Shown piece after piece: positions 15,488-28,732 of a stretch of 29,722 nucleotides of DNA (positions within the stretch are counted from its first letter, which is position 1; each line of letters starts with the position of its first letter). Both the position numbers and the translations under genes were made by a program. Source of the stretch: a virus; the IMG/VR virus record IMGVR_UViG_3300009093_000104, positions 1 through 29,722 of that record. One strand, 5' to 3'. The notes under the pieces were generated by a model. That model made no database searches and was not told the DNA's origin. It saw only the letters and a program-made list of their open reading frames with translations.

Positions 15488-15663
15488 GCGACCGTCCTTT
15501 GCGCCTTGCGCGCGTGGTACAGCGCACGCATGCGCTCGCGAGCGGCAAGGCGTTCGCAGTCTTTGCAGGAGTGGTGGCGACCATCAGTTGAACGGCGCGG
15601 CCGGCGGTCGTGGTAGAACGCCGCGTCTGATTTCCAGATGCCGCATGTCGAGCAGGATTTCAT
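15475..15663 (-). CDS. Small zinc-ribbon protein (62 aa)
   Basis: The start is the ATG at 15663 (MKSCSTCGIWKSDAAFYHDR), overlapping the methyltransferase stop as ATGA. Two CxxC knuckles, CSTCG near residue 4 and CKDCE near residue 36, are separated by a basic stretch with DGRHHS, and a basic helix (RLAARERMRALYHARKAQR) follows. This is the zinc-ribbon part often found at the N-terminus of phage HNH/endonuclease VII-type enzymes, but the nuclease part is absent. It may bind nucleic acid as an independent small protein, or be the remnant of a longer HNH gene. Confidence 0.7.
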   Translation of the reverse strand: MKSCSTCGIWKSDAAFYHDRRPRRSTDGRHHSCKDCERLAARERMRALYHARKAQRTVACPT

Positions 15664-16544
15664 GCGGCTTGCTCCGCACCAAACATATCGGACTGATTCA
15701 GCGCAGCGCCAAGATTGAGAGCTGCCTGCCGGTAATAGCTGGCCTTCAATTCCACGCCGACAAATTTGCGGCCCATTTGTAACGAGACGTAACCCTCGGA
15801 GCCGATGCCGGCGAACGGACTCAGCACCACGTCGCCGGGATTCGTCCACAGGTCAACGCCGCGCCGAATTACTTCTAACTGCAACGGGCAGATATGGCGC
15901 TCGTCGTCATGCTCGCGTGCGCTACGGAATTGCAGCGTGTCGCTCGGGTCGATATCCATCCATACCGGAGAGGCGACCTGTTGCCACTTGTCTACCGGAT
16001 ACTGCGATGGATCGTGCGTCACGCGGTCGATCTGCTCGCCCGGCGTGCGTACCGTCACAAGGTAATCAGGGATGCCTTGACGTGACATTGCCGCATTGCC
16101 GCGCACGGTTTTGTGCAGCAGCCCTAGCGCCTTCGTGCGCTGCATGGCCGTTACCGGGTCTTTCCAGATGCATACTTCGCTGGCGTAGATGAAGCCCTTC
16201 GCCTGGAAGGAGCGAATCAGATCTCCGCGAAAATCTTTCAAGCCAATGTAGCCATCGCGCTCTTTGCTCGTCGGCATCAACATGCAGTGAAACGAGACAT
16301 TGCGGCCCGGCTTCATCACGCGGCGCAATTCCTCGATCAGATGGCCGAAGTGCTCGAAAAACTCGCCATCGTTGCGGCAGTTGCCCATGTCGCGTGGAGA
16401 GTTTGAATATGTATACAATGACGCAAATGGCGGACTGAATATAGAATAGTCCATGCTGCGCTCAGGCAATCCGCGCAGGGCTTCAACGCAGTCGCCGTGG
16501 ATGAGCGTCCAGCCTTCGCCGATCGATTGATCAAGGGAATTCAT
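15660..16544 (-). CDS. DNA methyltransferase, beta-class N4-cytosine/N6-adenine type
   Basis: I chose the ATG at 16544 (MNSLDQSIGEGWTLIHGDCV), which overlaps the helicase stop as ATGA; 294 aa. The catalytic motif IV is SPPF at residues 37-40, preceding the SAM-binding motif I (LSPFAGIGSEG, around 245), so the order is permuted as in beta-class enzymes. SPP[YF] is found in both N4mC and some N6mA enzymes, so the target base is not determined. The region between (YIGLKDFRGDLIRSF, CIWKDPVTAMQRTKALG) carries the target-recognition part. No restriction endonuclease lies beside it. Coupling to an SNF2-like helicase suggests a protective or counter-defence pair rather than ordinary restriction-modification. 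Confidence 0.92.
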   Translation of the reverse strand: MNSLDQSIGEGWTLIHGDCVEALRGLPERSMDYSIFSPPFASLYTYSNSPRDMGNCRNDGEFFEHFGHLIEELRRVMKPGRNVSFHCMLMPTSKERDGYIGLKDFRGDLIRSFQAKGFIYASEVCIWKDPVTAMQRTKALGLLHKTVRGNAAMSRQGIPDYLVTVRTPGEQIDRVTHDPSQYPVDKWQQVASPVWMDIDPSDTLQFRSAREHDDERHICPLQLEVIRRGVDLWTNPGDVVLSPFAGIGSEGYVSLQMGRKFVGVELKASYYRQAALNLGAALNQSDMFGAEQAA

Positions 16545-17929
16545 GCGGCCTCCGATTGAAGCCATGCCGGCGCAATGATTGGCTTGGCGGGAAGATATGG
16601 ATTCGTATCGCGCACCATGCCGAGCACGGATTGCTGGACGGATGCGAGCGTTTCGGCCGATAGCGCGTCGGCCATGACTTTGGCGTCGGCTTCCTTGCGC
16701 TTGAGGTTGGCGGCTATCGCGCCTTCCAACTCGCTGGCGAACAGATGGACGTGAACTTCGCGTTGCTGCCCAAAGCGCCAGCATCGGCGCACGGCCTGGT
16801 AATAGGATTCCCACGAGTCAGTCACGCCGACGAACGCGACGCGGGCGCAGTGCTGCCAGTTCAATCCCCAACCGGCGATTTTGCTTTTTGTGACCAGCAC
16901 GCAGATTTTGTCGTCAGCAAAATCGCGTAGCCGTTGCTCTTTGACTTCCGCATCATCGGAACCTGCCACTTGCACCGCTCCATCGATTGCCGCAGTCAGC
17001 GCGTCGCCCTCGTCGTTCAGATCGCACCAAACGATCCACGGCTGCTTATCGGCGTTGACCATCGCAGCACACGCTGCAACGCGATTGTTCATGCTGGCGC
17101 GGCGTGCGTCGCGGCGCTCGGACATGCTCGACGCCTCAAGCGCGAACAGCATGCCGTCAGACGCTTGCATTTCCGTTTCGACGTGATGCTCGGAAACCGT
17201 CAGGGGCGGCAGGATGTACGCACCGTCATCGAATCCGAGATCGGATGGCTTGCGCACCATTGCCGCCCACGAAGCCATCCATCGCCAGAACATCGCGCGG
17301 GCGTGACCCTTGAGTCGCCAGTCCTGCGTTTTGGCCGCGTCGTGAACGAAGTACTCGGCGAGCATTTCCGTCTGTGTGCAGATGCCGAGGAATTCGGCGT
17401 GCGTGCCCAGTTCGGTCCAGTCGTTTGGCGCTGGCGTCGCGGTCGCGCACAGTTTGAACGGCGTGTCGCGGAACGCCTCAAGCAACGCCTTAAGAGTCTT
17501 GGACGTGTGATGCTTGATGATGCTCGACTCGTCCAGAACTATCGCGCCAAACCGCGAGCAATCGAACTTGTGCAAGCGATCGTAGTTCGTGATGTTGATC
17601 CCTGATCGCACGTCGTCTGCCTCGCGGCAGTGAGTCACGCTCAGTCCCATCACATCGCCTTCGCGCACAGTCTGTGCGGCGACCGCCAGCGGGGCCAGAA
17701 TCAAAACATCATGCCCGGCGTGACGATGAATCGCGTCAGACCACGCCAGCTCAATTCGGGTTTTCCCTAGACCTGTGTCCGCGAACACTGCAGCGCGACC
17801 GCGACGCAAAGCCCACTCGACCAGCACACGCTGATGGTCGAACAGCACGCCGTCGATGATCGTGAACGTTTCCAGTCCGGTCGGCGGAACGGATGACAAC
17901 TTGCGCGCGATGAAGTCGTTGTAGCTCAC
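16541..17929 (-). CDS. SNF2-like superfamily 2 helicase/translocase
   Basis: This is a 462-aa SF2 protein starting with GTG at 17929. Motifs in order are Q-like LFDHQRVLVEWA; motif I ADTGLGKT (residues 50-57); Ia LILAPLAVAAQT; II VLDESS (131-136, DESx instead of DEAH); III CATATPAPNDW; IV around KQPWIVWCDLNDEG; V SKIAGWGLNWQ; and VI YYQAVRRCWRFGQ. The SNF2 subgroup uses ATP to move along double-stranded DNA and usually does not unwind it. Phage members often accompany a nuclease such as VRR-NUC; here the partner is the methyltransferase, coupled by ATGA. No nuclease domain is fused. Confidence 0.92.
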   Translation of the reverse strand: MSYNDFIARKLSSVPPTGLETFTIIDGVLFDHQRVLVEWALRRGRAAVFADTGLGKTRIELAWSDAIHRHAGHDVLILAPLAVAAQTVREGDVMGLSVTHCREADDVRSGINITNYDRLHKFDCSRFGAIVLDESSIIKHHTSKTLKALLEAFRDTPFKLCATATPAPNDWTELGTHAEFLGICTQTEMLAEYFVHDAAKTQDWRLKGHARAMFWRWMASWAAMVRKPSDLGFDDGAYILPPLTVSEHHVETEMQASDGMLFALEASSMSERRDARRASMNNRVAACAAMVNADKQPWIVWCDLNDEGDALTAAIDGAVQVAGSDDAEVKEQRLRDFADDKICVLVTKSKIAGWGLNWQHCARVAFVGVTDSWESYYQAVRRCWRFGQQREVHVHLFASELEGAIAANLKRKEADAKVMADALSAETLASVQQSVLGMVRDTNPYLPAKPIIAPAWLQSEAA

Positions 17930-18317: not shown

Positions 18318-18465
18318 CTCGCCTCCCGATCGACTTGCCACCTTCCGATGCATAGATCACGCGCGCGTTGAATGGAGGAAGGCCGTCGTTGAAGTCGCGA
18401 TTGAGCGAATCCATTGCGGCGGTCGCGAGCGGGAAGTCGCGGCGGTTGCGTTCGCGCGCACTCAT
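18310..18465 (-). CDS. Small unknown protein (51 aa)
   Basis: The ATG at 18465 (MSARERNRRDFPLATAAMDS) overlaps the primase-helicase stop as ATGA. The 51-aa product has a basic N-terminal helix and a strand-like end (FNARVIYASEGGKSIGRRDV). No family is recognised. It overlaps the next gene by 8 bases, which keeps translation continuous through the operon. Confidence 0.6.
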   Translation of the reverse strand: MSARERNRRDFPLATAAMDSLNRDFNDGLPPFNARVIYASEGGKSIGRRDV

Positions 18466-20288
18466 GCGCTCAGCCTCTGTGCTTCGGCGTCGAGGAGCGT
18501 GAACTCCGTCATCGGTCGCGGCCGGTGATTCGGCGCGCTCAAGAATTGCGTACTCGCAGGATCGAACCATAGGCGGATGACTGGCTCCTCACCGGTTGCG
18601 CGCTGCTTGCTCACGAGCAGCATCGTGTCCGCTTGGTCGCGGTATTTTTCCGGAAGTTCTTCGAGCGGCTGGCCGGCTTGCTGAAGCTTCGCGTTCGCTT
18701 CGGCGAGCGCCTTGATCGCGCGCTCGCGCGGCTTGTTTCGCCATACCTCGATGACCGTGTCGGCCATGTCGGTTATGCCGCCCGAACCCTTGACGCCCAT
18801 CTTGCCGGCTGGCCGATCCTCTCCTTCGCTCTTGCGCATGTGCGCGACGACCGCGATGTGCGTGTTCGTCTCGCGTGCGAAGTCGGTCAGATCCTCGACG
18901 AATTCCTTCTGGCCGGAATAGTCGTCGTCAGCGAAGCCGCACTTCGTCAGGTTGTCGATCAGGAACAGCTCGACCTGATAGCGCCGGCGCGCGTAGCGGA
19001 ACACCTCGAGGATGCGCTTGCCCTTCGCGCGCCCAGCGATATCGAACGCGAACATGCAGGCCGCAAGTTGGCGGTTGATGTGCCGCGCGAATGCCTCGGT
19101 CGGCTTCGCGACTCCGGCGATCTGCCGATTCATCCGCATCAGCCACATCGCCGTGCGGAACTCCATGCTGGCCACGCAACAACGCGTGCCCTGCACTGCC
19201 AGTGCGCCGATGATGTGCGACACCACTGCCGACTTGCCGTGCCCGCTAACGCCCGCCCAGATCGACGTCTCGCCTGGGCGCAGCCGGATCGTGTTGTGCG
19301 TCTTCGGCCACGGCAGCAGCAGGCCGACGTCGACGCGGCTGTATTCGGCAATCACTTCGTCTTCGAAATCACCGACGCTGCGCAGCTCGGCCGGGTCCAG
19401 CGTGCGCGCGCAGCGCATAGATTCGATGATCTCGGCGCGCGTAATGCCTTCCATGAGGCACGCGTTCGCGTCCTTGCGCGGCAGGTTCATCACCTTGCAC
19501 CGCTCGCGGCCTAGGCGCTCGACGAGTTCCGCGATCGCCCTGCGCCCTGCAGGGTCGCCGTCCATCGACAGGTAAATCGTGTCAAAGCGCTCCAGCCGTT
19601 CGTATTCGCGCTCAATCCAGCCGTGCGCGCCGGCGCCGGTCGGCACGCTCAGGCTCGGGAAGCCGTATGCGTGCATCGCAATTGCGTCGAGTTCGCCCTC
19701 GGTGATGCACACCGCGCGCGCGCTCGGCGTCAGCGCCTGCCAGCCGAAGAGGATCGGTTCGCAGTCCGCGTCCGCGCTGAACTGCTTGGGCAACTTGCGG
19801 TACTTCGCGAATACCAACTCATCGCCGACGAGGTACGGGAACATCAGGCGATCGCCGCGGCTCGCGAGCTTGTACGCGCCGATCGACTCGACCGGAATCT
19901 TGCGCACATCGACCAGCCAGCGCATGTGCTCGACGGAAAGCTGGTGCACGCCCCCGCGCGTCGGCTTCTTCCACGTCCGCTTTTCGCGGCTCTGCGGGCG
20001 CTCTTCGGCGATGCCGAGGAACGCCAGCGCTTCACGGCACGCGTCGACCAGCGGCAAATTGCGCACCGCCATCCACAACCCGATGAAGTCGCCCTTCTCG
20101 CTCGTGCTGAAATCGGACCAGACGCCGGCCTTGTCGCCGGTCAGGTGCACGCCTAGGGAATCGCCAGCCTCGCCGGTCAGGCTACCGCAGCGCCATTCGT
20201 GCCCGACGCGCTTGCCATGCGGCAGCAGCTCGCGAACGACGGCTTCCGCCTGGGCGCCGAGCAGCCGCGAGATGTCTGAGGCTCTCAC
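18462..20288 (-). CDS. Replicative primase-helicase (Toprim plus DnaB-like domain)
   Basis: This 608-aa protein joins a primase half to a hexameric helicase half, like T7 gp4. It starts with GTG at 20288, overlapping the O-like gene as GTGA. Residues 30-75 (GHEWRCGSLTGEAGDSLGVH, GVWSDFSTSEKGDFIGL) look like a reduced CHC2-type region, with the zinc residues mostly lost. The Toprim motifs are ITEGELDAIAMHAYG (195-209) and LSMDGDPAGRRA (240-251). The helicase part has Walker A GVSGHGKS (346-353), Walker B LFLIDN (441-446), and VVAHMRK plus KGSGGITDMAD beyond it. It replaces the lambda P/host DnaB route by supplying a helicase of its own. Confidence 0.92.
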   Translation of the reverse strand: MRASDISRLLGAQAEAVVRELLPHGKRVGHEWRCGSLTGEAGDSLGVHLTGDKAGVWSDFSTSEKGDFIGLWMAVRNLPLVDACREALAFLGIAEERPQSREKRTWKKPTRGGVHQLSVEHMRWLVDVRKIPVESIGAYKLASRGDRLMFPYLVGDELVFAKYRKLPKQFSADADCEPILFGWQALTPSARAVCITEGELDAIAMHAYGFPSLSVPTGAGAHGWIEREYERLERFDTIYLSMDGDPAGRRAIAELVERLGRERCKVMNLPRKDANACLMEGITRAEIIESMRCARTLDPAELRSVGDFEDEVIAEYSRVDVGLLLPWPKTHNTIRLRPGETSIWAGVSGHGKSAVVSHIIGALAVQGTRCCVASMEFRTAMWLMRMNRQIAGVAKPTEAFARHINRQLAACMFAFDIAGRAKGKRILEVFRYARRRYQVELFLIDNLTKCGFADDDYSGQKEFVEDLTDFARETNTHIAVVAHMRKSEGEDRPAGKMGVKGSGGITDMADTVIEVWRNKPRERAIKALAEANAKLQQAGQPLEELPEKYRDQADTMLLVSKQRATGEEPVIRLWFDPASTQFLSAPNHRPRPMTEFTLLDAEAQRLSA

Positions 20289-21157
20289 TTGCCCACCAAA
20301 TTCAGGTAGGCCATGTCGGTCGCGCCAGGCGCATCGGCGCCGCTACTGCGTTGCCCGCGCGCGCCGTTCGCCGGCGGGAGTCCGTCGTTCCATCGGTCCT
20401 GATTGATGTAGGTTTCGGGGTTAGGCACGAAGCCTTCGCGCCAGCGCCTGTCGTTTTCGAGCCGGCGCCGGACGTCCCAAATGATCTGGCTTGCTACATG
20501 GTCAAGCTTGCGAGACTTCCACTTTCCAGCGCACACCTTTTTCCCGGTCTTGTTTGGGTACAGCTGCCAGAACTCTTCGAACCGAGATGGCAAAACTTGC
20601 GCTTGTTCGGTGAATATCTCTTGCTCTTTTACTTCTGCTTCTGCTTCTGCTTCCGTAACGGTTCGGCGTAACGCGTCACTATCGTTACGCTCGTTCGCCG
20701 TAACACCACAACCGTTCGCCGTAACGTTCGCCGCAGCCTTCTTGCGCTCGCGGAGGAGTTTCATGCGTGTCGCAGCATTGCTGTCGTGATCGCGAAAGCG
20801 CATGTAATTCAGCACGATATAGCCGCCATTGACGCGCACTAGCCTGCGCCCTTCGAAGTCTGCGGTGCGGCTCCCAAGATCAGGCGAGCCGAGGGCCTCA
20901 AGAGCGTCCAGGCCTTGCTCAATCTCAAGCAACGCCCTGCGTACTATTCCAACTCCGGCGGCGTCGATGAATCCGTACCATCCAGGCGGAACGACAAAGC
21001 CAGTCGGCTCCAAATTGCGGACGTTGATCGCCGGCATCGGCTCAGTGATTTCCTGTGGCATGGCCATCAGCAACGCGGTGATGAACATCTCGCGTTGCGC
21101 TCGCTCGACCCACAAGGTTGATTCGAGAATGCGCGTGTCTAGCTTCACAAACGCCAT
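20285..21157 (-). CDS. Replication initiator, lambda O-like
   Basis: The ATG at 21157 (MAFVKLDTRILESTLWVERA) is coupled by TAATG to a 40-aa gene; the 225 bases of open frame upstream are a shadow. The product is 290 aa. An N-terminal winged-helix-like part (residues 1-150, with VPPGWYGFIDAAGVGIVRRA and NGGYIVLNYMRFRDHDSNAA) is followed by a low-complexity linker (TEAEAEAEVKEQE). The C-terminal part, FEEFWQLYPNKTGKK and VPNPETYINQDRWND, is the common end of phage O-like replication proteins, probably for loading the helicase. The linker DNA contains iterons and an asymmetric tract, as the lambda O gene does. The partner helicase follows directly. Confidence 0.85.
   Translation of the reverse strand: MAFVKLDTRILESTLWVERAQREMFITALLMAMPQEITEPMPAINVRNLEPTGFVVPPGWYGFIDAAGVGIVRRALLEIEQGLDALEALGSPDLGSRTADFEGRRLVRVNGGYIVLNYMRFRDHDSNAATRMKLLRERKKAAANVTANGCGVTANERNDSDALRRTVTEAEAEAEVKEQEIFTEQAQVLPSRFEEFWQLYPNKTGKKVCAGKWKSRKLDHVASQIIWDVRRRLENDRRWREGFVPNPETYINQDRWNDGLPPANGARGQRSSGADAPGATDMAYLNLVGK
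20611..20733. other. Candidate replication origin inside the O-like gene
   Basis: Within 80 bases the plus strand has GTTCGGCGTAAC (20661-20672), GTTCGCCGTAAC (20693-20704 and 20714-20725) and a partial GTTCGCCG (20726-20733). Two further CGTAAC cores occur, direct at 20654-20659 and inverted at 20684-20689. Immediately to the left lies a strand-asymmetric tract (20619-20652) of repeated CTTCTG with TTTTA, purine-rich on the minus strand. Lambda ori is also a set of O-binding iterons next to a purine-asymmetric, easily melted tract inside gene O. The repeats also shape the protein (VTANG/VTANE), so coding repetition is the alternative reading. Confidence 0.65.
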
Positions 21158-21279
21158 TACAGACTCCGAAGCTTCATAGCCGAGAACAGCAGCGCCACGA
21201 TCGGCGCCGGCAGAAATCCTCGGCAATACATTCCAATCGCGAGCAGCTTCACGAGCCTGCGCGCGCCAACGAATTTCAT
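21157..21279 (-). CDS. 40-aa basic hydrophobic protein
   Basis: This small frame is coupled on both sides: its ATG at 21279 overlaps the CII-position stop as ATGA, and its TAA overlaps the O-like start as TAATG. It reads MKFVGARRLVKLLAIGMYCR and continues GFLPAPIVALLFSAMKLRSL. The N-terminus is basic and the rest hydrophobic, compatible with a membrane or lipid-touching peptide. The perfect junctions suggest that at least its translation matters, if only to couple O to the upstream gene. Confidence 0.6.
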   Translation of the reverse strand: MKFVGARRLVKLLAIGMYCRGFLPAPIVALLFSAMKLRSL

Positions 21280-21692
21280 GCGGTTGTGCCTTCCAGAACC
21301 CGACGTAGCGCAGCGACTTCCTCGCGCAGTTCACGGTTTGATTTTTCGAGTTCGTTCTCGCGGAAGCGCAGGCTCGATACGTCATAGCCGCGGTCGTGTA
21401 CGAGCCACTGCAGCGGCGCTTCGTTGCCGCATAAATCCATCAGCGCGTGCAGCTTATTGACCGGGAAGTGAGCCTCGCCGCGCAGGATGCGTGACCAGTG
21501 GCCGGCATCAATGCCGAGTTCGGCATAGACCTCTTTTCCAGCTTCGAAACCTGCTGCACTGATGCACAGCTTGATTGCCGCGAGCATGGACGGCTGCGCA
21601 GTGATGAGACGAAGGTCGATGCGCTGATCGGTGCGGACCAAGCGCAATGGGCGCTGTGGATCGTCCAACACGGTCTGAGTTCGCGACTTCAC
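21276..21692 (-). CDS. DNA-binding regulator in the CII position
   Basis: This 138-aa protein starts with GTG at 21692 with GGAGG eight bases upstream. It has a helix-turn-helix-like middle (EVYAELGIDAGHWSRILRGE, residues 55-74, then NKLHALMDLCGNEAPLQWLV) and a C-terminal coiled coil (RFRENELEKSNRELREEVAA) likely to make it oligomeric. Lambda CII is also a small HTH protein that works as a tetramer through its C-terminus, and it lies between cro and O. Sequence likeness to CII itself is not evident, so the role is inferred from position, HTH and oligomer tail. Proteins of this type are common in pseudomonad and Burkholderia phages as 'phage regulatory protein'. Confidence 0.72.
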   Translation of the reverse strand: MKSRTQTVLDDPQRPLRLVRTDQRIDLRLITAQPSMLAAIKLCISAAGFEAGKEVYAELGIDAGHWSRILRGEAHFPVNKLHALMDLCGNEAPLQWLVHDRGYDVSSLRFRENELEKSNRELREEVAALRRVLEGTTA

Positions 21693-21750: not shown

Positions 21751-21960
21751 TTAAGCTGCTTTCTTCTCGATTCCCGCGCGAAGGCTGCCATCCGCGTTGA
21801 ACGCATCCGGGCGTAGCACATGGCGAATCTTCAGCGCATGCACATCGGGGATGGGTTGGTCGTCGGGCCACATGTAAATCGCCTGCCGCGTCTTAAGGCC
21901 AAGGGCAAGGCGAAGCGCGTCGACGCTTCCGAAAATCGCGATTGCTTCATGTTTGAGCAT
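21751..21960 (-). CDS. Cro-like repressor
   Basis: The ATG at 21960 (MLKHEAIAIFGSVDALRLAL) gives 69 aa, the size of Cro proteins. The helix-turn-helix is GSVDALRLALGLKTRQAIYM (residues 11-30), followed by WPDDQPIPDVHALKIRHVLR, the typical W..xxxP..RA..I pattern of phage Cro/YdaS-type proteins. A longer upstream frame crosses the promoter and is rejected. The gene has no Shine-Dalgarno sequence, and the promoter's predicted start point is at or next to the ATG, so the mRNA is probably leaderless. It is the first gene of the leftward early transcript and faces the CI-like gene across the operators, as Cro does in lambda. Confidence 0.83.
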   Translation of the reverse strand: MLKHEAIAIFGSVDALRLALGLKTRQAIYMWPDDQPIPDVHALKIRHVLRPDAFNADGSLRAGIEKKAA

Positions 21961-21966
21961 TTGCGG

Positions 21967-21995
21967 AATGTAAACGCGTTGACTATTGATGTCAA
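21967..21995 (-). promoter_or_regulatory. Leftward early promoter (pR-like)
   Basis: On the minus strand a perfect -35 TTGACA (21990-21995) is 17 bases from TACATT (21967-21972; 4 of 6). The start point should be near 21960, the A of the Cro-like ATG, giving a leaderless message. Both operator sites overlap the promoter. Confidence 0.8.
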
Positions 21996-22004
21996 CACGT
22001 TTAC
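21970..22004. promoter_or_regulatory. Early operator pair (OR-like)
   Basis: Two related 14-bp sites, GTAAACGCGTTGAC (21970-21983) and GTCAACACGTTTAC (21991-22004), are separated by 7 bases and are inverted copies of each other at 13 of 14 positions. Each is also an imperfect palindrome built from a GTAAACG/GTCAACG half-site. They cover both divergent repressor promoters. A third relative is at 23496-23509. Confidence 0.75.
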
Positions 22005-22020
22005 CGCGCCCGCATGTAAT
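21992..22020 (+). promoter_or_regulatory. Repressor promoter candidate (pRM-like)
   Basis: TCAACA (21992-21997; 4 of 6 to the -35 consensus) and TGTAAT (22015-22020; 5 of 6 to the -10 consensus) are 17 bases apart. The start would fall at about 22027-22030, so the CI-like message would also be leaderless or nearly so, like lambda cI from pRM. The weak -35 box lies inside the second operator. Confidence 0.6.
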
Positions 22021-22029
22021 CTCAGTTAC

Positions 22030-22521
22030 ATGGCGCTCGGGGAACGCATCAAGAAATGGCGTAAGGAAGCCGGATTTGGCACTCAGCAAGAGCTGGCCAA
22101 CGCGGTCGGCTGCACGCGCGGCACGGTGGCGATGTGGGAAACCGACAAGGTTGATCGCGTGGGCGGCGAATATATCGGGCTTCTGTCGATCGCCCTCGGC
22201 AAGTCGCCGCAGATGATCCAGACCGGCCGCGAGGCGAAGCTAACCCGCGAAGGATCGACTGCACCGGCAAGCCCGCAACTTGAGGAATCGCGCGAGGGTA
22301 ATGCGATTCAATCTCTGCGCGCGTTCCTCGGTGCGATGATGACCGTTATGGCTTCGAGAAGACCAGACGAAGGTGAGGCCTTGCTCGCGCTTGTCCAGGC
22401 TGCGCCAGAGGCAGATGTATTTGTGAACCATGGGCTTGGTCCAGACCTCGTAAAGGCGATCCGGCAGGGCATCGCTTTGGCAAAGGCGCAGCCACCTTCT
22501 CGGCGGCGCGCAGAGCCTTGA
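22030..22521 (+). CDS. CI-like lysogeny repressor, short XRE type
   Basis: The ATG at 22030 (MALGERIKKWRKEAGFGTQQ) gives 163 aa. The N-terminal XRE helix-turn-helix covers residues 5-60 (TQQELANAVGCTRGTVAMWE, then GEYIGLLSIALGKSPQMI). The rest is helical (SLRAFLGAMMTVMASRRPDE, EALLALVQAAPEADVFV) and has no S24 peptidase Ser/Lys motif, so induction by RecA-stimulated self-cleavage is not expected. Induction may need an antirepressor or another signal. No Shine-Dalgarno precedes the start, in line with a leaderless message. It faces the Cro-like gene across the operators, and exported-protein genes follow downstream. Confidence 0.83.
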   Translation: MALGERIKKWRKEAGFGTQQELANAVGCTRGTVAMWETDKVDRVGGEYIGLLSIALGKSPQMIQTGREAKLTREGSTAPASPQLEESREGNAIQSLRAFLGAMMTVMASRRPDEGEALLALVQAAPEADVFVNHGLGPDLVKAIRQGIALAKAQPPSRRRAEP

Positions 22522-22649: not shown

Positions 22650-22952
22650 GTGCAAATCAAAGCCATTGCCTTAGCCATCGCCGCGATCCTGTTGCCCGCG
22701 CTGGCGAATGCAGTCACTTATTCGCACGTCGAATCCGTGCGCGTCGGATCGAAGACCGTCGTGCCTGGCGATTCAGTGGACAAGATCGCTGACCAGGGTG
22801 AGCCGGATAGAAAGATCGACCTGATCAACGATTTCGGCGTCAAGAAAGGCGAGGAGTGGATCTTCATTCGTAGTGGCGGCCACAGCGCTACTGTGTTGCG
22901 CGTGAACAATTCCGGCACGGTCTTCATGGTGTTGGACATGCTCGGGCTTTAG
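22650..22952 (+). CDS. Small exported protein in the immunity region (100 aa)
   Basis: The start is a GTG at 22650 with a strong AGGAGG five bases upstream. The protein has a signal peptide, VQIKAIALAIAAILLPALAN, probably cut after ANA (residue 21). The mature part has a beta-like pattern with VGSKTVVPGDSVDKIADQGE, PDRKIDLINDFG and HSATVLRVNNSGTVFMVL. The piece GDSVDKIADQGEPD recalls the G-x-S...V...GEPD motif of DUF2845/SmpA-OmlA-type periplasmic proteins, which bind other envelope proteins. It lies between the repressor and the pL-like promoter, where lambda keeps rexAB, so it is a candidate lysogenic-conversion gene. Confidence 0.75.
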   Translation: MQIKAIALAIAAILLPALANAVTYSHVESVRVGSKTVVPGDSVDKIADQGEPDRKIDLINDFGVKKGEEWIFIRSGGHSATVLRVNNSGTVFMVLDMLGL

Positions 22953-22955
22953 CCC

Positions 22956-23426
22956 ATGCGCAGCTGGAAAACAGCTCTTTCGCTCGCGATGATTTGCGCC
23001 CTCGCCGGCTGCGGACGTTCGACCGATCAGCAGTCGGCCGACGACGAGCAATGGAAGGCATCTATCGCGAAGGCTGAGCAAGAGCGCGTCGCGCGCGAAA
23101 GCCAGATGGCCGCAGAGGCCGAGCATCGGCGCGAGGCCGAGGCTGCAGCGCAAGCGAAAATTGAGGATCAGGACCGATCCATCAAGCAAGACCAGCTCAC
23201 GCAGACGATCAAAAACGCCATGTACGATCCCGAATCGGCTCGCTTCCGCAATGTGCGCTTGAACCTCGTGGGCGACGCTCTGTGCGGCGAGATCAACGCG
23301 AAGAACAAGATGGGCGGATACGTCGGATTCAAGCGCTTCGTCGTCTTCCATGACGCCCCGCTCGTGGAAGCCGACGACACGCGCGCGCTATTCGACGCCG
23401 CATACAAAGCCGCAAACTGTCCGTAA
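22956..23426 (+). CDS. Lipoprotein with coiled coil and conserved C-terminal domain
   Basis: This 156-aa protein starts MRSWKTALSLAMICALAGCG; the lipobox LAGC predicts lipidation of Cys19. A charged coiled coil (about residues 30-75, ARESQMAAEAEHRREAEAAA) follows. The C-terminal domain has the pattern KNAMYDPESARFRNVRL, LCGEINAKNKMGGYVGFKRF, which I recognise from many unassigned exported proteins of bacteria and phages (…D P x S A x F R … C G x V N A K N … G G Y x G F). The gene is three bases after the previous one and likely co-transcribed. Together they look like envelope cargo made in the lysogen. The start at 22956 is the first in-frame ATG after the stop. Confidence 0.78.
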   Translation: MRSWKTALSLAMICALAGCGRSTDQQSADDEQWKASIAKAEQERVARESQMAAEAEHRREAEAAAQAKIEDQDRSIKQDQLTQTIKNAMYDPESARFRNVRLNLVGDALCGEINAKNKMGGYVGFKRFVVFHDAPLVEADDTRALFDAAYKAANCP

Positions 23427-23482
23427 AACCCAAGGCCGCGTAATGCCACTGCGGGACGTTTTTGCTCACGAATGTAAATTGC

Positions 23483-23512
23483 TTGACATTCTAAAGTAAG
23501 CGCGTTTACTAT
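23483..23512 (+). promoter_or_regulatory. Rightward early promoter (pL-like)
   Basis: A perfect -35 TTGACA (23483-23488) is 18 bases from TACTAT (23507-23512; 4 of 6). The start would be near 23519, giving a leader of about 30 bases before the first gene. A repressor-type operator fills the spacer. The motif GAATGTAAA also occurs here (23470-23478) and at the leftward promoter (21966-21974). Confidence 0.8.
23496..23509. promoter_or_regulatory. Operator GTAAGCGCGTTTAC (OL-like)
   Basis: This 14-bp imperfect palindrome (12 of 14 positions symmetric) is a close relative of the two sites at 21970-22004 and lies between the -35 and -10 boxes of the rightward promoter. A repressor bound here would block the early operon, as CI does at lambda OL. 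Confidence 0.72.
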
Positions 23513-23549: not shown

Positions 23550-23732
23550 ATGCATACCAGCAAGCCGCTTTCCCGCCACGTTCTTTCCGCGCCGCGCCTG
23601 GGCATCAGCGCGATTCACCTTGCCGTTCTACTGCTGCAGCTCGGTTTCGGCCTAGCGGTCGTTGCCGGCGGAGCGTGGGCGCTGTGGGTTGTGGTTGCCG
23701 CGCCGCTGATTGCTGCGGTGATGCCGTCGTGA
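23550..23732 (+). CDS. Small membrane protein, first gene of the rightward operon (60 aa)
   Basis: The ATG at 23550 (MHTSKPLSRHVLSAPRLGIS) gives 60 aa. A basic N-terminus is followed by a long hydrophobic part (residues 22-57, LAVLLLQLGFGLAVVAGGAW, ALWVVVAAPLIAAVM) that could span the membrane twice or form a hairpin. It is the promoter-proximal early gene, where lambda has N; nothing suggests an RNA-binding antiterminator. It couples to the next gene by GTGA. Confidence 0.65.
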   Translation: MHTSKPLSRHVLSAPRLGISAIHLAVLLLQLGFGLAVVAGGAWALWVVVAAPLIAAVMPS

Positions 23733-23860
23733 GCGCGCCTCGCCGGGAAAACATGCTGCTCGAAGTCGGCGGGCTGATCGTCGCCGCTGGTCTGGCCTTC
23801 GGCGCCTTCATCGCGTTGTGCTCGCTGGCCACTGTGGTCAAGGGCGTGTTGCTGCCGTGA
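23729..23860 (+). CDS. Small membrane protein (43 aa)
   Basis: The GTG at 23729 overlaps the previous stop as GTGA. The protein VSAPRRENMLLEVGGLIVAA continues GLAFGAFIALCSLATVVKGV and is one membrane helix with a basic N-terminus. Its start and stop junctions match those of the neighbours (the next start is again GTGA with the same VSA beginning). No function can be assigned. Confidence 0.6.
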   Translation: MSAPRRENMLLEVGGLIVAAGLAFGAFIALCSLATVVKGVLLP

Positions 23861-24056
23861 GCGCGCAGACGGCAGAACGTTGGCAGGCCGAGGATTTCGA
23901 TTACCTCGCCAAGGCCAGCGTTACCAGTTGGCGCAGAACAAGCGCCGCGTGGTCGAGATAGCCGACCGAATCATCCGCAACGCCACGCCGCGCAGCTCGG
24001 AAGAAATCGCGCGGATGTGGCCACACTTGAAGGAGACCATCAATGCTGCTGCATAG
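23857..24056 (+). pseudogene. Small early gene interrupted by an apparent -1 frameshift
   Basis: A frame starting at the GTG at 23857 reads VSAQTAERWQAEDFDYLAKA and then turns to low-quality sequence, ending at a TAG at 23959. From about 23915 the neighbouring frame reads RYQLAQNKRRVVEIADRIIR and ends KETINAAA at 24056, with no start of its own. Joined, the two parts make a plausible helical protein of about 66 aa. One base missing near AAGGCCAGCGTTACC would explain the break. It may be a real mutation, a sequencing or assembly error, or a programmed shift; no classic slippery heptamer is visible. Confidence 0.6.
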
Positions 24057-24237
24057 CTGGACAAACACGAAAGGCGCACTGCGCGTTGAGCTGCTGGAAG
24101 GCGACAACGTCGGACAGAGTTTCCGTCTATCCGACTCCGGCGAGATATCGGCTTTGATGACGCGCGCCGAGGCCGAAAGCCTGCGCGATCAACTGAACGC
24201 ACTTATCCCATCGCAGCGAATGAAGGAGGCCGCATAA
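24043..24237 (+). CDS. Small unknown early protein (64 aa)
   Basis: The ATG at 24043 has AGGAGA upstream and overlaps the end of the frameshifted gene. The protein starts MLLHSWTNTKGALRVELLEG and looks like a small beta sheet (GQSFRLSDSGEISALM) followed by a helix (AEAESLRDQLNALI). The size and sheet-helix plan resemble many small phage early proteins, none with known function that I can name. The stop directly abuts the next start. Confidence 0.65.
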   Translation: MLLHSWTNTKGALRVELLEGDNVGQSFRLSDSGEISALMTRAEAESLRDQLNALIPSQRMKEAA

Positions 24238-24543
24238 ATGAGCGCCCTATCCGTTTCCGAATTGCCGGTTTCCGAGCAACCGTCGAACGTCACCCCGCTG
24301 CGCCCGAGCAATCGCAAGATCGTTTCGGATGCGCTGATCGACTACTGCGATATGAAGCACATCGTCGGCCTGCAGCAGGGCGCTGTCGTTGAATTCGGGC
24401 TGACGATCCTTGCGAATGGCGCGAGCAACGCGAAGGCGATCGCTGAAGGCAAGATCACGGCTGATCGCATCCACGACAACATCCGTCAGATTCGCGCGCT
24501 GTCCGCTGCTACGCGTGGCGACGACGGCCCAAAGGCAGCCTAA
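24238..24543 (+). CDS. Unknown early protein (101 aa)
   Basis: The ATG at 24238 directly follows the previous stop and has AGGAGG upstream. The protein starts MSALSVSELPVSEQPSNVTP with a flexible Ser/Pro-rich stretch of about 25 residues. It continues as a helical part (NRKIVSDALIDYCDMKHIVG, GLTILANGASNAKAIAEGKI, HDNIRQIRALSAATRG). There is no membrane segment and no known motif. The high helical content and early position suggest a small regulatory or inhibitory protein, but this is open. Confidence 0.65.
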   Translation: MSALSVSELPVSEQPSNVTPLRPSNRKIVSDALIDYCDMKHIVGLQQGAVVEFGLTILANGASNAKAIAEGKITADRIHDNIRQIRALSAATRGDDGPKAA

Positions 24544-24546
24544 GTC

Positions 24547-24993
24547 ATGGGCATCCTCGCCTTCCTGCTCGAATCGCCGCATGAGGCTATGCCGCGTTCG
24601 TTCCGCGATCGGATGCGCAGCGTGCGCGGCTCCGTGATTCCGGCAGCGTCAGACGGCGATCCTGACTCCGACGCCGAGATCGGCAAGCGCTATGCGCGGC
24701 TCGGGGCCCGGCGTGTGCTTACCGAAGGGATGACCGGAGGAGGCAAGTTCGATCGCCTGCAGCGGCTTGCGGGATGGCGTGCACGGTTCACCGTCCTGAC
24801 CGGCGATGCGCACGATCGCATCCTCGAATCCGGTGTCGGTGTCCGCGACCACATGCTTGCCGAGATTCGCGATCGCGCTGAACGCAAGGCGCGCGCCGCT
24901 GAACTTGAGCGTGCACGGCTGGATCGGGCTTTCTTCGGCCTTGACGTTGTCGAGGTCATCCATAAACGACCGCGTCTGACTATGGCGCGCTGA
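24547..24993 (+). CDS. Unknown basic early protein (148 aa)
   Basis: The protein of 148 aa starts at an ATG three bases after the previous stop (MGILAFLLESPHEAMPRSFR). It is Arg-rich and helical, with RLQRLAGWRARFTVLTGDAH in the middle and a long charged helix at the end (IRDRAERKARAAELERARLD), finishing VVEVIHKRPRLTMAR. It is a likely nucleic-acid- or protein-binding early protein without known family. Long open frames on the opposite strand exist here, but operon order and spacing favour this one. Confidence 0.6.
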   Translation: MGILAFLLESPHEAMPRSFRDRMRSVRGSVIPAASDGDPDSDAEIGKRYARLGARRVLTEGMTGGGKFDRLQRLAGWRARFTVLTGDAHDRILESGVGVRDHMLAEIRDRAERKARAAELERARLDRAFFGLDVVEVIHKRPRLTMAR

Positions 24994-25047
24994 ATTCAAC
25001 TGCGGCGCGAAATGCGTCGCCTAAAACCAACCCATCAGGAGTGAGCA

Positions 25048-25326
25048 ATGGCAACTAAGAAAGCAAGCCGTCCCGTAATCGTCTGCACTGAGCATCGCGG
25101 CGTGTTCTACGGTCATGCGAGTGACACGAAGGGAACCGTGATCGACCTCACTGGGGCGCGCATGGCGATTCAGTTTGGCACCACACGCGGCGTGATGGAG
25201 CTGGTTGAAACTGGCCCGACCTCGCGCAGCAAAGTTTCCGCCCGCGCGGATATCGAAGTGCGCAAGATCACCGCAGTTTTCGAAGTGACGCCAGTCGCCG
25301 AAAAGGCATGGGAAGCCGCGCCGTGA
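25048..25326 (+). CDS. Small beta-rich early protein (92 aa)
   Basis: The ATG at 25048 has AGGAGTG upstream. The 92-aa protein starts MATKKASRPVIVCTEHRGVF and has repeated strands: YGHASDTKGTVIDLTGARMA, IQFGTTRGVMELVETGPTS, VRKITAVFEVTPVAE. This resembles a conserved small phage family (a DUF6948-like outline, from memory) found in early operons, with no known role. The stop is overlapped by the next GTG start as GTGA. The 54 bases before it hold no gene. Confidence 0.7.
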   Translation: MATKKASRPVIVCTEHRGVFYGHASDTKGTVIDLTGARMAIQFGTTRGVMELVETGPTSRSKVSARADIEVRKITAVFEVTPVAEKAWEAAP

Positions 25327-25577
25327 ATCCCATCGCGTACCGCGAACGAGTGACCGTCATCGACGTACTCGAAACCGGCGCGTGCTTTGAAGGCGTGAAG
25401 GCTTGGATTGAGCGAGTCGGCGTCATCGTTGTGAAGGCTGCTGATTACCTGCGCGAGCAATGGATACAGTACGCAGCAGTGATCTACGGCGACGGCTACG
25501 GCGACGGCTACGGCTACGGCGACGGCTACGGCTGCGGCTACGGCGACGGTTACGGCTACGGCGACGGCTACGGCTAA
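25323..25577 (+). CDS. Early protein with Tyr-Gly-Asp-Gly repeat tail (84 aa)
   Basis: The GTG at 25323 overlaps the previous stop as GTGA. The first 54 residues form a normal small domain (VNPIAYRERVTVIDVLETGA, CFEGVKAWIERVGVIVVKAA). The last thirty residues are only Tyr, Gly, Asp and one Cys, in YGDG/YG units, down to the stop. I recall Gly/Tyr/Asp-rich tails like this from other phage proteins of unknown role. The tail is probably disordered or adhesive. It is encoded by a 12-base direct repeat in which Gly is almost always GGC. Confidence 0.75.
   Translation: MNPIAYRERVTVIDVLETGACFEGVKAWIERVGVIVVKAADYLREQWIQYAAVIYGDGYGDGYGYGDGYGCGYGDGYGYGDGYG
25485..25574 (+). repeat. Coding direct repeat, GGCGACGGCTAC units
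   Basis: Ninety bases made of GGCGACGGCTAC and shorter GGCTAC units, in frame with the gene. One unit has TGC for TAC and one has GGT for GGC. Such a tract can change length by slippage, so the number of units may vary between related phages. Confidence 0.9.
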
Positions 25578-25589
25578 ATAATTTCCGCA

Positions 25590-25630
25590 CGCGCCGGCAC
25601 ACAGGGCAAACGGAGTTGGTTGCCGGCGCG
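25590..25630 (+). terminator. Long-loop hairpin before the recombination genes
   Basis: A perfect 10-bp stem (CGCGCCGGCA / TGCCGGCGCG) with a 21-base loop is followed by GTTTCTTTCTTCC. It lies in the 75-base gap between the repeat-tail gene and the coiled-coil gene. It could be a partial terminator, a processing site or a 5' structure that controls the recombination genes. The T-run is interrupted, so strong termination is doubtful. Confidence 0.5.
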
Positions 25631-25652
25631 GTTTCTTTCTTCCGAGGACTTT

Positions 25653-26636
25653 ATGACAACCGAAATCAAGGAATACACCAAAACCGAAGCCGCACTTGCG
25701 ACTCTGCGCGACAAGTACGCGACCGCCGTTTTCGACGTGACGACGACGAAAGGAATGGCGATTGCAAAAGAAGCACGCGCCGAACTTCGCGACTATCGCG
25801 TCTCGCTGGAAAAGATGCGGATTGAGATCAAGGCGCCAGCGCTTGAGCGTTGCCGGCTGATCGACACGGAAGCCAAGCGCATAACGGCCGAACTGTCGAA
25901 ACTCGAAGAACCGATCGACGCGATTATCAAAACTGAGGAAGGTCGCAAAGAAGCCGAGCGCGCAGCAAAGGTGAAGCCCGAGCAGGAACGCATCGCTGCC
26001 ATTGAGCGCGAGCGGCTTGCTGCGGAGAAGGCCGAGGCTGATCGCATTCAGCGTGAGAAGGAAGCGGCCATGGCTGCGGAGCGTGCCGAACTCGACCGGC
26101 AGCGCAAAGAACTGGAGGCCGATCGTGCCGCACAGCAACGTATCGTCGCCGAGCTCGCCGAGCGCGAACGCGTTGAACGAGAGCAGCGCGAAGCCGCAGA
26201 GGCCGCGCAGCGCGAGATATTGCGCAAGGAGCGCGCCGAGCACGAAGAGAAGCTTGCGGCTGAGCGCAAGCGCATCGCCGACGAACGCGAAGCACTGGAA
26301 CGCGCACAGGCCGAACAGCGCCGCATCGCGCAGGAAGAAGCTGACCGCAAGGCGAAGGCAGAACGCGAACGCCTGGACGCCGAAGCCAAGGCCGCGCGTG
26401 AGGCCCAGGCGCAGCGCGAGGCATATGCGCGTGCACAGGCTGAGCGTGAGCGTGAGGAAGCAGCAGCGAAGCGCTTGGCAACCCTCAAGGCCCGTGCACC
26501 GGCTTTGCGCGCGGCAGCAATCGATGCGCATGCGCTGCTGAGCGCCAACGGTCTCGCCGACCACGACGTAACGATCACCTTGGGCTTTGCTATCGAAAAC
26601 GATGCGAAGTCCGCCAAACCGAGGAAAGCCGCATGA
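25653..26636 (+). CDS. Long coiled-coil protein of the recombination operon (327 aa)
   Basis: The ATG at 25653 (MTTEIKEYTKTEAALATLRD) has GAGGA upstream. An N-terminal helical domain (residues 1-100, YATAVFDVTTTKGMAIAKEA and IEIKAPALERCRLIDTEAKR) recalls phage proteins of the DUF1351 kind that precede RecT/ERF genes. Residues 100-290 form an almost unbroken, highly charged coiled coil (Glu/Arg/Ala-rich, for example AERERVEREQREAAEAAQRE-like repeats). A short end (NGLADHDVTITLGFAIEN) closes the protein. Position directly before ERF suggests a partner in annealing or in exonuclease control. It is coupled to ERF by ATGA. Confidence 0.78.
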   Translation: MTTEIKEYTKTEAALATLRDKYATAVFDVTTTKGMAIAKEARAELRDYRVSLEKMRIEIKAPALERCRLIDTEAKRITAELSKLEEPIDAIIKTEEGRKEAERAAKVKPEQERIAAIERERLAAEKAEADRIQREKEAAMAAERAELDRQRKELEADRAAQQRIVAELAERERVEREQREAAEAAQREILRKERAEHEEKLAAERKRIADEREALERAQAEQRRIAQEEADRKAKAERERLDAEAKAAREAQAQREAYARAQAEREREEAAAKRLATLKARAPALRAAAIDAHALLSANGLADHDVTITLGFAIENDAKSAKPRKAA

Positions 26637-27442
26637 ACGCTATGGTCAAACCGCAGGCGGGCGAACTCGCCCCAATCAATCAGCCGCAGTCGGAAGACTC
26701 CCGCGTCCTGATGATGATCGTGCAGAAAATGTCCGAAGACCCGGACTTCGACATCGACAAAGTTAAGCAGATGATCGAGATCAAGGAGCGTCTCGACGCG
26801 ACTGCTGCGCGCAAAGCGTTCGCGGCCGATATGGCGGAGTTCAAGAAAGTCGCGCCGACGATCACGAAGGATCGTCGCGTGTTCTTCAAGGGCAAGGATG
26901 GCAAGCCGGACACCGACTACAACCATGCCTCCTTGGGCAATGTTGTCGAGACCGCGATCGCGTTGCTCGCCGAGTACGGCTTTTCGCACAACTGGACCAC
27001 GAAGAGAAACGGCGATCGAATAGAGGTCACATGCTGGCTCAAGCATCGGCTTGGCCATGTCGAATCCGAAATGCAGGATGGCCCGCTCGACACGACTGGC
27101 AACAAAAACAATCTGCAGGCAGCGGCGTCCACGCGCACATTCTTGGAACGCTATTCGTTCCTAGCGGTTGCCGGCTTGGCCACGAAGGAGCAGCTCGACG
27201 ACGACGGGCGCACCGGCGGCGGCGCTCCGGAGAAGTCCGAAGCTGAACTTGAGGCCGAACGCGCGGCAGCAGCCAAGCAGCAGGAATGGCTCGACGCGAT
27301 CGAGGCATGCACGAGCGATGTCGAGTTGTCCAAGCGCAAGAAGGAACTCGTCGCGGCGTGCGGTGGAAGTGACAAGGTGCCGCAGAATCTCGTCGCCGCT
27401 TGCGTGGCGAAGAAAGCCAGCCTGGCGAAGGCTGCGCAATGA
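26633..27442 (+). CDS. ERF-family single-strand annealing protein
   Basis: This 269-aa protein starts MNAMVKPQAGELAPINQPQS. The ERF core (about residues 55-180) is recognised by AADMAEFKKVAPTITKDRRV, YNHASLGNVVETAIALLAEY, GFSHNWTTKRNGDRIEVTCW, MQDGPLDTTGNKNNLQAAAS and TRTFLERYSFLAVAGLAT. ERF proteins anneal complementary strands, work with a phage exonuclease, and help circularise or recombine the genome. The C-terminal part is charged and helical (EAELEAERAAAAKQQEWLDA). It is overlapped by ATGA on both sides, with the coiled-coil gene before it and the exonuclease after it. Confidence 0.93.
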   Translation: MNAMVKPQAGELAPINQPQSEDSRVLMMIVQKMSEDPDFDIDKVKQMIEIKERLDATAARKAFAADMAEFKKVAPTITKDRRVFFKGKDGKPDTDYNHASLGNVVETAIALLAEYGFSHNWTTKRNGDRIEVTCWLKHRLGHVESEMQDGPLDTTGNKNNLQAAASTRTFLERYSFLAVAGLATKEQLDDDGRTGGGAPEKSEAELEAERAAAAKQQEWLDAIEACTSDVELSKRKKELVAACGGSDKVPQNLVAACVAKKASLAKAAQ

Positions 27443-28035
27443 CGCCGGAAGTCGCCAACGCGAGGCGCGGCAAACTGACGGCCTCGGTCGCGCCGATCAT
27501 CATGGGCGGCGATTCGACCGAGGGCCTGAAGAAGCTGATTCGCAAGCTGGCCGGCGAGCGCATCTATGGCGACTTGGGCGAGGAATCGTTCCAGTCGGCC
27601 AAGATGAAAGACGGCAACGAATGCGAACCGGAAGCGCTGGATTGGGCCGAGTTCACGTTCGATTGCATGCTGCGCCGCGGCGTCTGCATTCAGCACCCGA
27701 CCATGGACTATGTTGCCGGCACGCCTGACGCGTTGGGCGATAGCTTCGTGGTCGAGTGCAAGAGTCCTCTGTTTCACGTCTGGGCCGATACGCGCGAGCG
27801 CGGCGAGATCCCGAGCGAGTACCGCTGGCAGTGTCGTTGGCAGCTCTGGATTGCTAAGGAGCTATACGGCTGGACCGAGGGCAGGTTCGTCAGCTACCAC
27901 CGACGGCCGCGTGGGTTCGTCATTCCCTTCACTGTGACCAATCAAGAAATAGAGCAGATGAAACAGCGCGCGATGTACGTAAACGTTCGCATCCAGGAAT
28001 GCATGGAAGTCCTCAGCGAGCGGAGGGCCGCGTAA
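27439..28035 (+). CDS. YqaJ-family viral exonuclease (lambda Exo-like)
   Basis: The ATG at 27439 (MTPEVANARRGKLTASVAPI) overlaps the ERF stop as ATGA; 198 aa. The PD-(D/E)xK nuclease core has D97 in AGTPDALG and the ECK triad E106-x-K108 in VVECKSP, with an upstream Glu (E63 region, NECEPEALDWAE). The helix QCRWQLWIAKELYGW matches the family's Q-motif. Such exonucleases degrade the 5' strand of double-stranded ends to give 3' overhangs for ERF, as lambda Exo does for Beta. Both genes together form a Red-type system. No Gam-like host-nuclease inhibitor is seen in the window. Confidence 0.93.
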   Translation: MTPEVANARRGKLTASVAPIIMGGDSTEGLKKLIRKLAGERIYGDLGEESFQSAKMKDGNECEPEALDWAEFTFDCMLRRGVCIQHPTMDYVAGTPDALGDSFVVECKSPLFHVWADTRERGEIPSEYRWQCRWQLWIAKELYGWTEGRFVSYHRRPRGFVIPFTVTNQEIEQMKQRAMYVNVRIQECMEVLSERRAA

Positions 28036-28229
28036 TGGGCGACATGCGCGAACACTTCGATGCACTGCGCGAGCATCGCAAGGAACAGCGGCGTGCGCTC
28101 GGCGTACCGTGCCCGCACTGCTACAAAGCGCGCCCGAAGGCGCAGCCGTCGATTCTCATGCCCGGCCAGCGGTGCAAGGTCGATGGCTACGTTGACCAGC
28201 GTGTGCCTATTGGGAGCGCTCGCGCATGA
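28035..28229 (+). CDS. Small zinc-motif protein (64 aa)
   Basis: The ATG at 28035 overlaps the exonuclease stop as TAATG. The protein MGDMREHFDALREHRKEQRR has a helical, basic front and a Cys motif CPHCYKARPKAQPSILMPGQ followed by RCKVDGYVDQR. Two Cys as CxxC plus a later Cys and Asp/His could hold one metal. I remember this CPxC...P.ILLPGQRC...GY.D.R pattern from small phage proteins beside recombination genes, without known role. Confidence 0.72.
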   Translation: MGDMREHFDALREHRKEQRRALGVPCPHCYKARPKAQPSILMPGQRCKVDGYVDQRVPIGSARA

Positions 28230-28732
28230 GCCACGCTCCCGGCGCCACGCTGAAAGCCCTCGTCAAGCTCGGCCGCTCGCCTGGCGATTGCTGGCAATGG
28301 ATCGGGAAGATTGACCCGCTCGGTTGCGCGATCAAGCAGTTCGACGGCAAGCCCATCCCGGCACGTCGTTGGATGTGGTCGCAGCTGTTCGGTCCACTGC
28401 CGACCGGCCTTGTTGTCACGACCTCTTGCGGCAGCAAGCAGTGCGTGAACCCGCATCACCTTCTGTTGTGCACGCAGGCGGACGCTTGCCGCGCGACGGT
28501 CAGCACAACGCTCGTCGCGAGCGACATCGCTGAGATTCGCAGAGCGAAAACCGGCGGCGGCAATCAGATGGCAAAGATTCTCGCCGAGCGCTACGGCGTA
28601 TCGGCCGCAACGATTCGCGACATCTGGCGCCGCAAGTCATGGGCGCCTGCAAAACCGTTCTACGGTCCTGCAACACCGAAGCACAGCCGACAATTTCCGA
28701 AGCCATCAACCGAGGGAGAAACCCGTGTTTGA
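28226..28732 (+). CDS. HNH endonuclease
   Basis: The ATG at 28226 overlaps the previous stop as ATGA; 168 aa. The N-terminal part has CWQWIGKIDPLG (Cys22), ARRWMWSQLFGPLPTGLVVT, Cys68, and the core CVNPHHL (73-79), which is the HNH_3/AP2-HNH homing-type pattern: zinc knuckle, ββα-metal site with NPHH. The second half (AKILAERYGVSAATIRDIWR) is a helix-turn-helix for DNA binding. It may be a free-standing homing-like nuclease or help packaging or recombination. Its end overlaps the next gene by 8 bases. Confidence 0.88.
   Translation: MSHAPGATLKALVKLGRSPGDCWQWIGKIDPLGCAIKQFDGKPIPARRWMWSQLFGPLPTGLVVTTSCGSKQCVNPHHLLLCTQADACRATVSTTLVASDIAEIRRAKTGGGNQMAKILAERYGVSAATIRDIWRRKSWAPAKPFYGPATPKHSRQFPKPSTEGETRV

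Follow-up and report, generated by a model that had tools for sequence, protein, structure and literature searches.

Divergent repressor genes and their flanking operons

The window, i.e., the whole 29,722-nucleotide stretch of viral DNA analysed here, carries a Cro-like and a CI-like gene that diverge from an intergenic region of about 70 bp. The two genes, described in the earlier note on this DNA as facing away from each other, are the ORFs at 21960..21751 (minus strand) and 22030..22521 (plus strand). Their products belong to HTH DNA-binding protein types, as expected of the divergent cI and cro genes of a lambdoid switch. Such a control region is where a bacterial virus chooses between dormancy and killing its host. 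The genes on both sides are as follows.

18462..21181, minus strand: replication genes of the cro operon, encoding an initiation protein (20285-21181) and a primase/helicase (18462-20288)
21276..21692, minus strand: gene for a CII-like regulator downstream of cro, whose PHROG match to CII-like proteins is weak (E 8e-4; phrog_2345 E 2e-5)
21751..21960, minus strand: Cro-like gene, 69 aa, weak P22_Cro/YdaS match
22030..22521, plus strand: CI-like repressor gene, 163 aa, HTH_3 match above cut-off, no S24 peptidase
22650..23426, plus strand: two genes with signal-peptide/lipoprotein-like products, lying between cI and pL in the place of lambda rexAB
23550..28732, plus strand: early operon behind oL, with small ORFs and genes for an Erf-like annealing protein (26633-27442), an exonuclease (27433-28035) and an HNH protein (28226-28732)

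A pR-type operon with replication genes and a pL-type operon with recombination genes are thus both present in the window, and their replication and Erf/exonuclease genes match the PR and PL operons of lambda. The gene order is that of lambda in mirror image, with cro and the replication genes on one arm and cI, extra genes in the rex position and the oL-controlled Erf/exonuclease operon on the other. No integrase was found in the 29.7-kb fragment, and we therefore judge temperance from the presence of cI. Rfam returned no RNA family and ARAGORN no tRNA in the window.

Small secreted or lipoprotein genes occupy the place between cI and pL also in the related records L006, L081, L115, and L116, and the two genes of the window (22650-23426) are possible exclusion or lysogenic-conversion genes. 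Within the oL operon, 15.5 copies of the 6-bp tandem repeat CTACGG (25484-25576) give one ORF a tail of GYGDGYG repeats. Other tandem-repeat proteins (AATNTGDQS and STVTAYNS) are encoded in what seems to be the same operon of L005 (2-688) and L006 (3517-4395). Late in the operon on the cro side, a helicase gene (16541-17929) adjoins a DNA methyltransferase gene (15660-16544); these genes may have an anti-restriction role.

Candidate operators over the early promoters

Both promoters described in the earlier note for the intergenic region could be located, the leftward one as TTGACA (21995-21990) and TACATT (21972-21967) with a 17-bp spacer (10/12), the rightward one as TCAACA (21992-21997) and TGTAAT (22015-22020), again 17 bp apart. 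Together with a promoter downstream of cI, they carry the candidate operators given below; the operators are listed without strand.

21967..21995, minus strand: cro promoter, TTGACA-17-TACATT, last base of the -10 element 6 nt from the cro ATG
21992..22020, plus strand: predicted cI promoter, TCAACA-17-TGTAAT (9/12), 9 nt from the cI ATG
23483..23512, plus strand: pL-like promoter, TTGACA-18-TACTAT
21970-21983: O1, GTAAACGCGTTGAC, overlapping the -10 element of the leftward cro promoter
21991-22004: O2, GTCAACACGTTTAC, overlapping the -35 element of the cro promoter and that of the predicted cI promoter
22016-22029: O3, GTAATCTCAGTTAC, weaker, over the -10 element and start of the predicted cI promoter and abutting the cI ATG
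23474-23487: oL2, GTAAATTGCTTGAC, overlapping the -35 element of the second early promoter
23496-23509: oL1, GTAAGCGCGTTTAC, overlapping the -10 element of the second early promoter

O1 and O2 are the two 14-mers that had been described as inverted copies at 13 of 14 positions, separated by 7 bp, and we recovered them as such. Each is by itself a near-palindrome of the form GTMAACR/YGTTKAC, which accounts for the inverted relation between them: O1 and O2 are two palindromic sites, not two arms of one dyad. Taken alone, the inverted pair is not significant across 29.7 kb, since a shuffled sequence of that length is expected to contain 0.57 inverted pairs that match at 13 of 14 positions and start 15-40 bp from each other. 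The same pair is expected about 0.001 times inside the ~70-bp intergenic region, a figure obtained by scaling the 29.7-kb shuffle value by length. The weight of the pair comes from its intergenic place and from its recurrence in relatives. We therefore considered it extremely improbable that chance or recognition by a host regulator explains the pair, and rejected this explanation: although at least one such pair occurred in 17 of 60 shuffles of the window, many phages carry the motif at these same promoters, and in two of them (L005 and L006, see below) it has altered jointly at oR and oL.

Beyond cI, about 1.5 kb away, lies a second control region that the earlier note had overlooked. It spans 23474-23509 over the TTGACA-18-TACTAT promoter and contains the same operators as a pair, oL2 and oL1; the third good copy in a motif scan of the window was GTAAGCGCGTTTAC, the oL1 site. 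We also scored the window with two position matrices. The first was trained on operator sites of the relatives only, with the window left out, and its best five among ~29,700 positions were 21991, 23496, 21970, 23474, and 22016. The second, whose training set was limited to O2 and O3 of L081, L082, L115, and L116, put the same five sites on top (16.1, 15.3, 14.0, 14.0, and 11.7, the next site scoring 10.6). The sites used for training were selected by eye with the motif of the window already known, so that the test is strong but not fully independent. O1, O2, and oL1 were found by both matrices, with O1 among the top four matches; oL2 ranked fourth in the whole window with one matrix and second with the other, and O3 was fifth. 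At the divergent promoters, O1 and O2 are thus clear copies of the operator, whereas O3 is weak.

Relatives and a probable third operator

Relatives were gathered by three queries, with the primase, Cro, and CI sequences. The window and four relatives (L081, L082, L115, and L116) share an identical geometry, in which O1 is followed after 21 bp by O2, after a further 25 bp by O3 and then by the cI ATG. In the window as in the four relatives, the last base of O3 directly precedes this ATG. The relatives also have the oL pair, with its sites 21-22 bp apart, downstream of cI and roughly 1.4-1.6 kb from oR.

The earlier note had proposed two instead of three operators at this side, and its interval (21967-22020) ends inside the third site. 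Seen by itself, that site is unimpressive: 4 of 7 dyad pairs are matched and, with the first matrix, about one site of this level is expected per shuffled window, so that its score is barely above background and the call of O3 rests on position. These values speak for a switch in which O1 and O2 alone matter at oR, with a chance dyad at 22016-22029. However, strong O3 dyads occupy precisely this position, at the same spacing, in the four relatives, and the dyad is kept while the spacer beside it is not; between the window and L082, 11 of 14 positions are identical in O2 and 12 of 14 in O3 but just 1 of 11 in the spacer between them. On the position and conservation of O3 in the four relatives, we rejected the two-operator reading, which we regard as improbable. 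O3 is most likely an operator copy too weak to be caught by a plain motif search. Because its spacing and position are those seen in the four relatives, the layout is probably three operators at oR plus two at oL. The lambda-type switch proposed earlier thus stands in so far as divergent cro and cI promoters share operator dyads, O1 and O2 being found by a matrix built from relatives, but its operator count does not.

More distant relatives extend this picture. L084 and L085 have three sites too, with slightly different spacings. In L005 and L006, which are more distant and whose repressors differ, another paired dyad, TTACGAAANNTCGTA, is present at both oR and oL; the operators therefore change in step, which would follow from a single repressor reading both places. 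L017 (7.6 kb) and L086 (39.9 kb) gave no HTH_3 or S24 match in their records, i.e., they have no detectable cI, and nevertheless carry cro next to a promoter bearing these operators. This suggests that Cro by itself may be enough to preserve the sites. The oL1 14-mer is identical at the corresponding promoter of L017, which was the only record found by an exact scan for the oL pattern. In three records (L017:620-830, L086:5890-6010, and L024:3080-3345), cro directly faces an oL-type promoter with no cI between them; these phages are possibly lytic derivatives.

Other searches gave little. The window CI alone retrieved no relatives from viral contigs, tblastn on phage records yielded HTH-level matches only, and neither Cro nor CI found anything useful among PDB sequences. 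In 398 genomes of the order to which the Dyella strain holding L008 belongs, all matches were of low identity and most of them fell in the HTH part (best E 2.6e-8, 36% identity).

Repressors and the proposed switch

The window Cro shares 59% identity with Cro of L017, 57% with that of L081 and 52% with that of L082, and the stretch GLKTR.A.YMWP is common to the window and L017 proteins. The CI proteins of the window, L081, and L082 have the recognition-helix stretch RGTVAMWE in common. A self-cleavage domain of the S24/LexA type is typical of lambda, though not every lambdoid switch has one. Such an S24 domain is present in four relatives, CI of L081 and L082 among them, whereas no S24 match was obtained in the CI-like protein of the window or elsewhere in the 29.7-kb record. 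We therefore do not expect cleavage of the classical, RecA-stimulated kind, and induction probably does not proceed by such self-cleavage. The C-terminal half of the CI-like protein had no match in any search made, and a single-sequence fold of the protein was all helical at low confidence (pLDDT 58).

The best NCBIfam match of the CI-like protein is DicA, a regulator of a cryptic prophage. This match, the missing peptidase and a weak, below cut-off match of the Cro-like protein to YdaS (E 0.011) would fit a self-contained regulatory or toxin-antitoxin-like module of the YdaS/PaaR2 type that survives in a decayed prophage with no working lysis-lysogeny switch. We consider this quite unlikely, as the same operators also stand 1.5 kb away at an early recombination operon that is intact, and the structural, replication, and lysis genes in the window are present and open. 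The region instead very likely determines the immunity of a lambdoid-type phage that is temperate or was so until recently, and CI and Cro would compete at oR and oL for a single family of 14-bp dyads.

From the sites, their ranking and conserved spacing, the gene context and the missing S24 match, we infer the following pattern of binding, affinity order and regulation. The CI-like and Cro-like proteins would compete for GTMAACR/YGTTKAC dyads at oR and, 1.5 kb off, at oL. At oR, O1 would act over the cro -10 element, O2 over both -35 boxes and the weak O3 over the cI start; at oL, oL2 would act over the -35 and oL1 over the -10 element of the recombination-operon promoter. CI bound to O1, O2, and oL would silence both lytic operons, Cro on O3 and O2 would shut off cI, and induction would probably follow a route other than RecA-stimulated self-cleavage. 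Since O2 (21991-22004) covers the -35 element of the cI promoter (21992-21997), which is itself only predicted and is not clearly retained in relatives, lambda-style activation of PRM from O2 appears unlikely. CI at O2 would thus probably repress its own promoter rather than activate it. In all nine phages examined, 6-7 nt separate the end of the cro -10 element from the ATG, so that a leaderless cro mRNA is predicted; the cI mRNA is probably nearly leaderless too. The cro transcript, and probably that of cI, would start on the AUG itself or no more than 3 nt from it.

Lambda has three operators at each side and a cleavable S24-type CI that activates PRM from OR2, and its cro mRNA has a leader. 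The window differs in that O2 overlaps the predicted cI -35 element and in that the CI-like protein is without S24. The immB region of N15 and phiKO2, with three OR and two OL sites, is similar to the window in having three operators between repressor and cro and two at a distant promoter (PMC4488713), but has another operator sequence, a telomere-phage backbone and its second site upstream of repA. Their relative PY54 retains only OR3, and its cI and cro mRNAs are both leaderless by RACE (PMC4488713). The switch of the Stx phage 933W has five repressor sites and no OL3 (PMC3317979); the three-plus-two count is alike, whereas its 15-bp operators have another sequence and are read by another repressor. 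In prophage CP-933P, the CI analogue PaaR2 is without a peptidase and unresponsive to mitomycin C, its partner is of the YdaS/Cro type, palindromes lie at PR and PL and the repressor mRNA is leaderless, as predicted for the window; CP-933P differs by a toxin-antitoxin operon, by YdaT and by 18-bp palindromes, GTTTAGTAA, four of which are at oR (PMC8630535).

Every distinguishing feature of the region thus has a precedent elsewhere. Except that its repressor is not of the S24 type and that O2 is placed differently, the region would work like the lambda switch; it would otherwise be an ordinary example. A further reading, which we advance tentatively and rate below even, is that operators, spacing, and Cro were kept within one phage family while the C-terminal half of the repressor was swapped, from S24 in the relatives to a probably helical one here, so that the same switch DNA would have an SOS-independent induction signal and both switch mRNAs would be leaderless.

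The analysis adds a comparatively supported three-plus-two operator switch from uncultured phages, and it brings together relatives without cI that keep cro and the operators and S24-bearing relatives with the same sites. With this set of phages, one could ask how cleavable and non-cleavable repressors read a single operator grammar.
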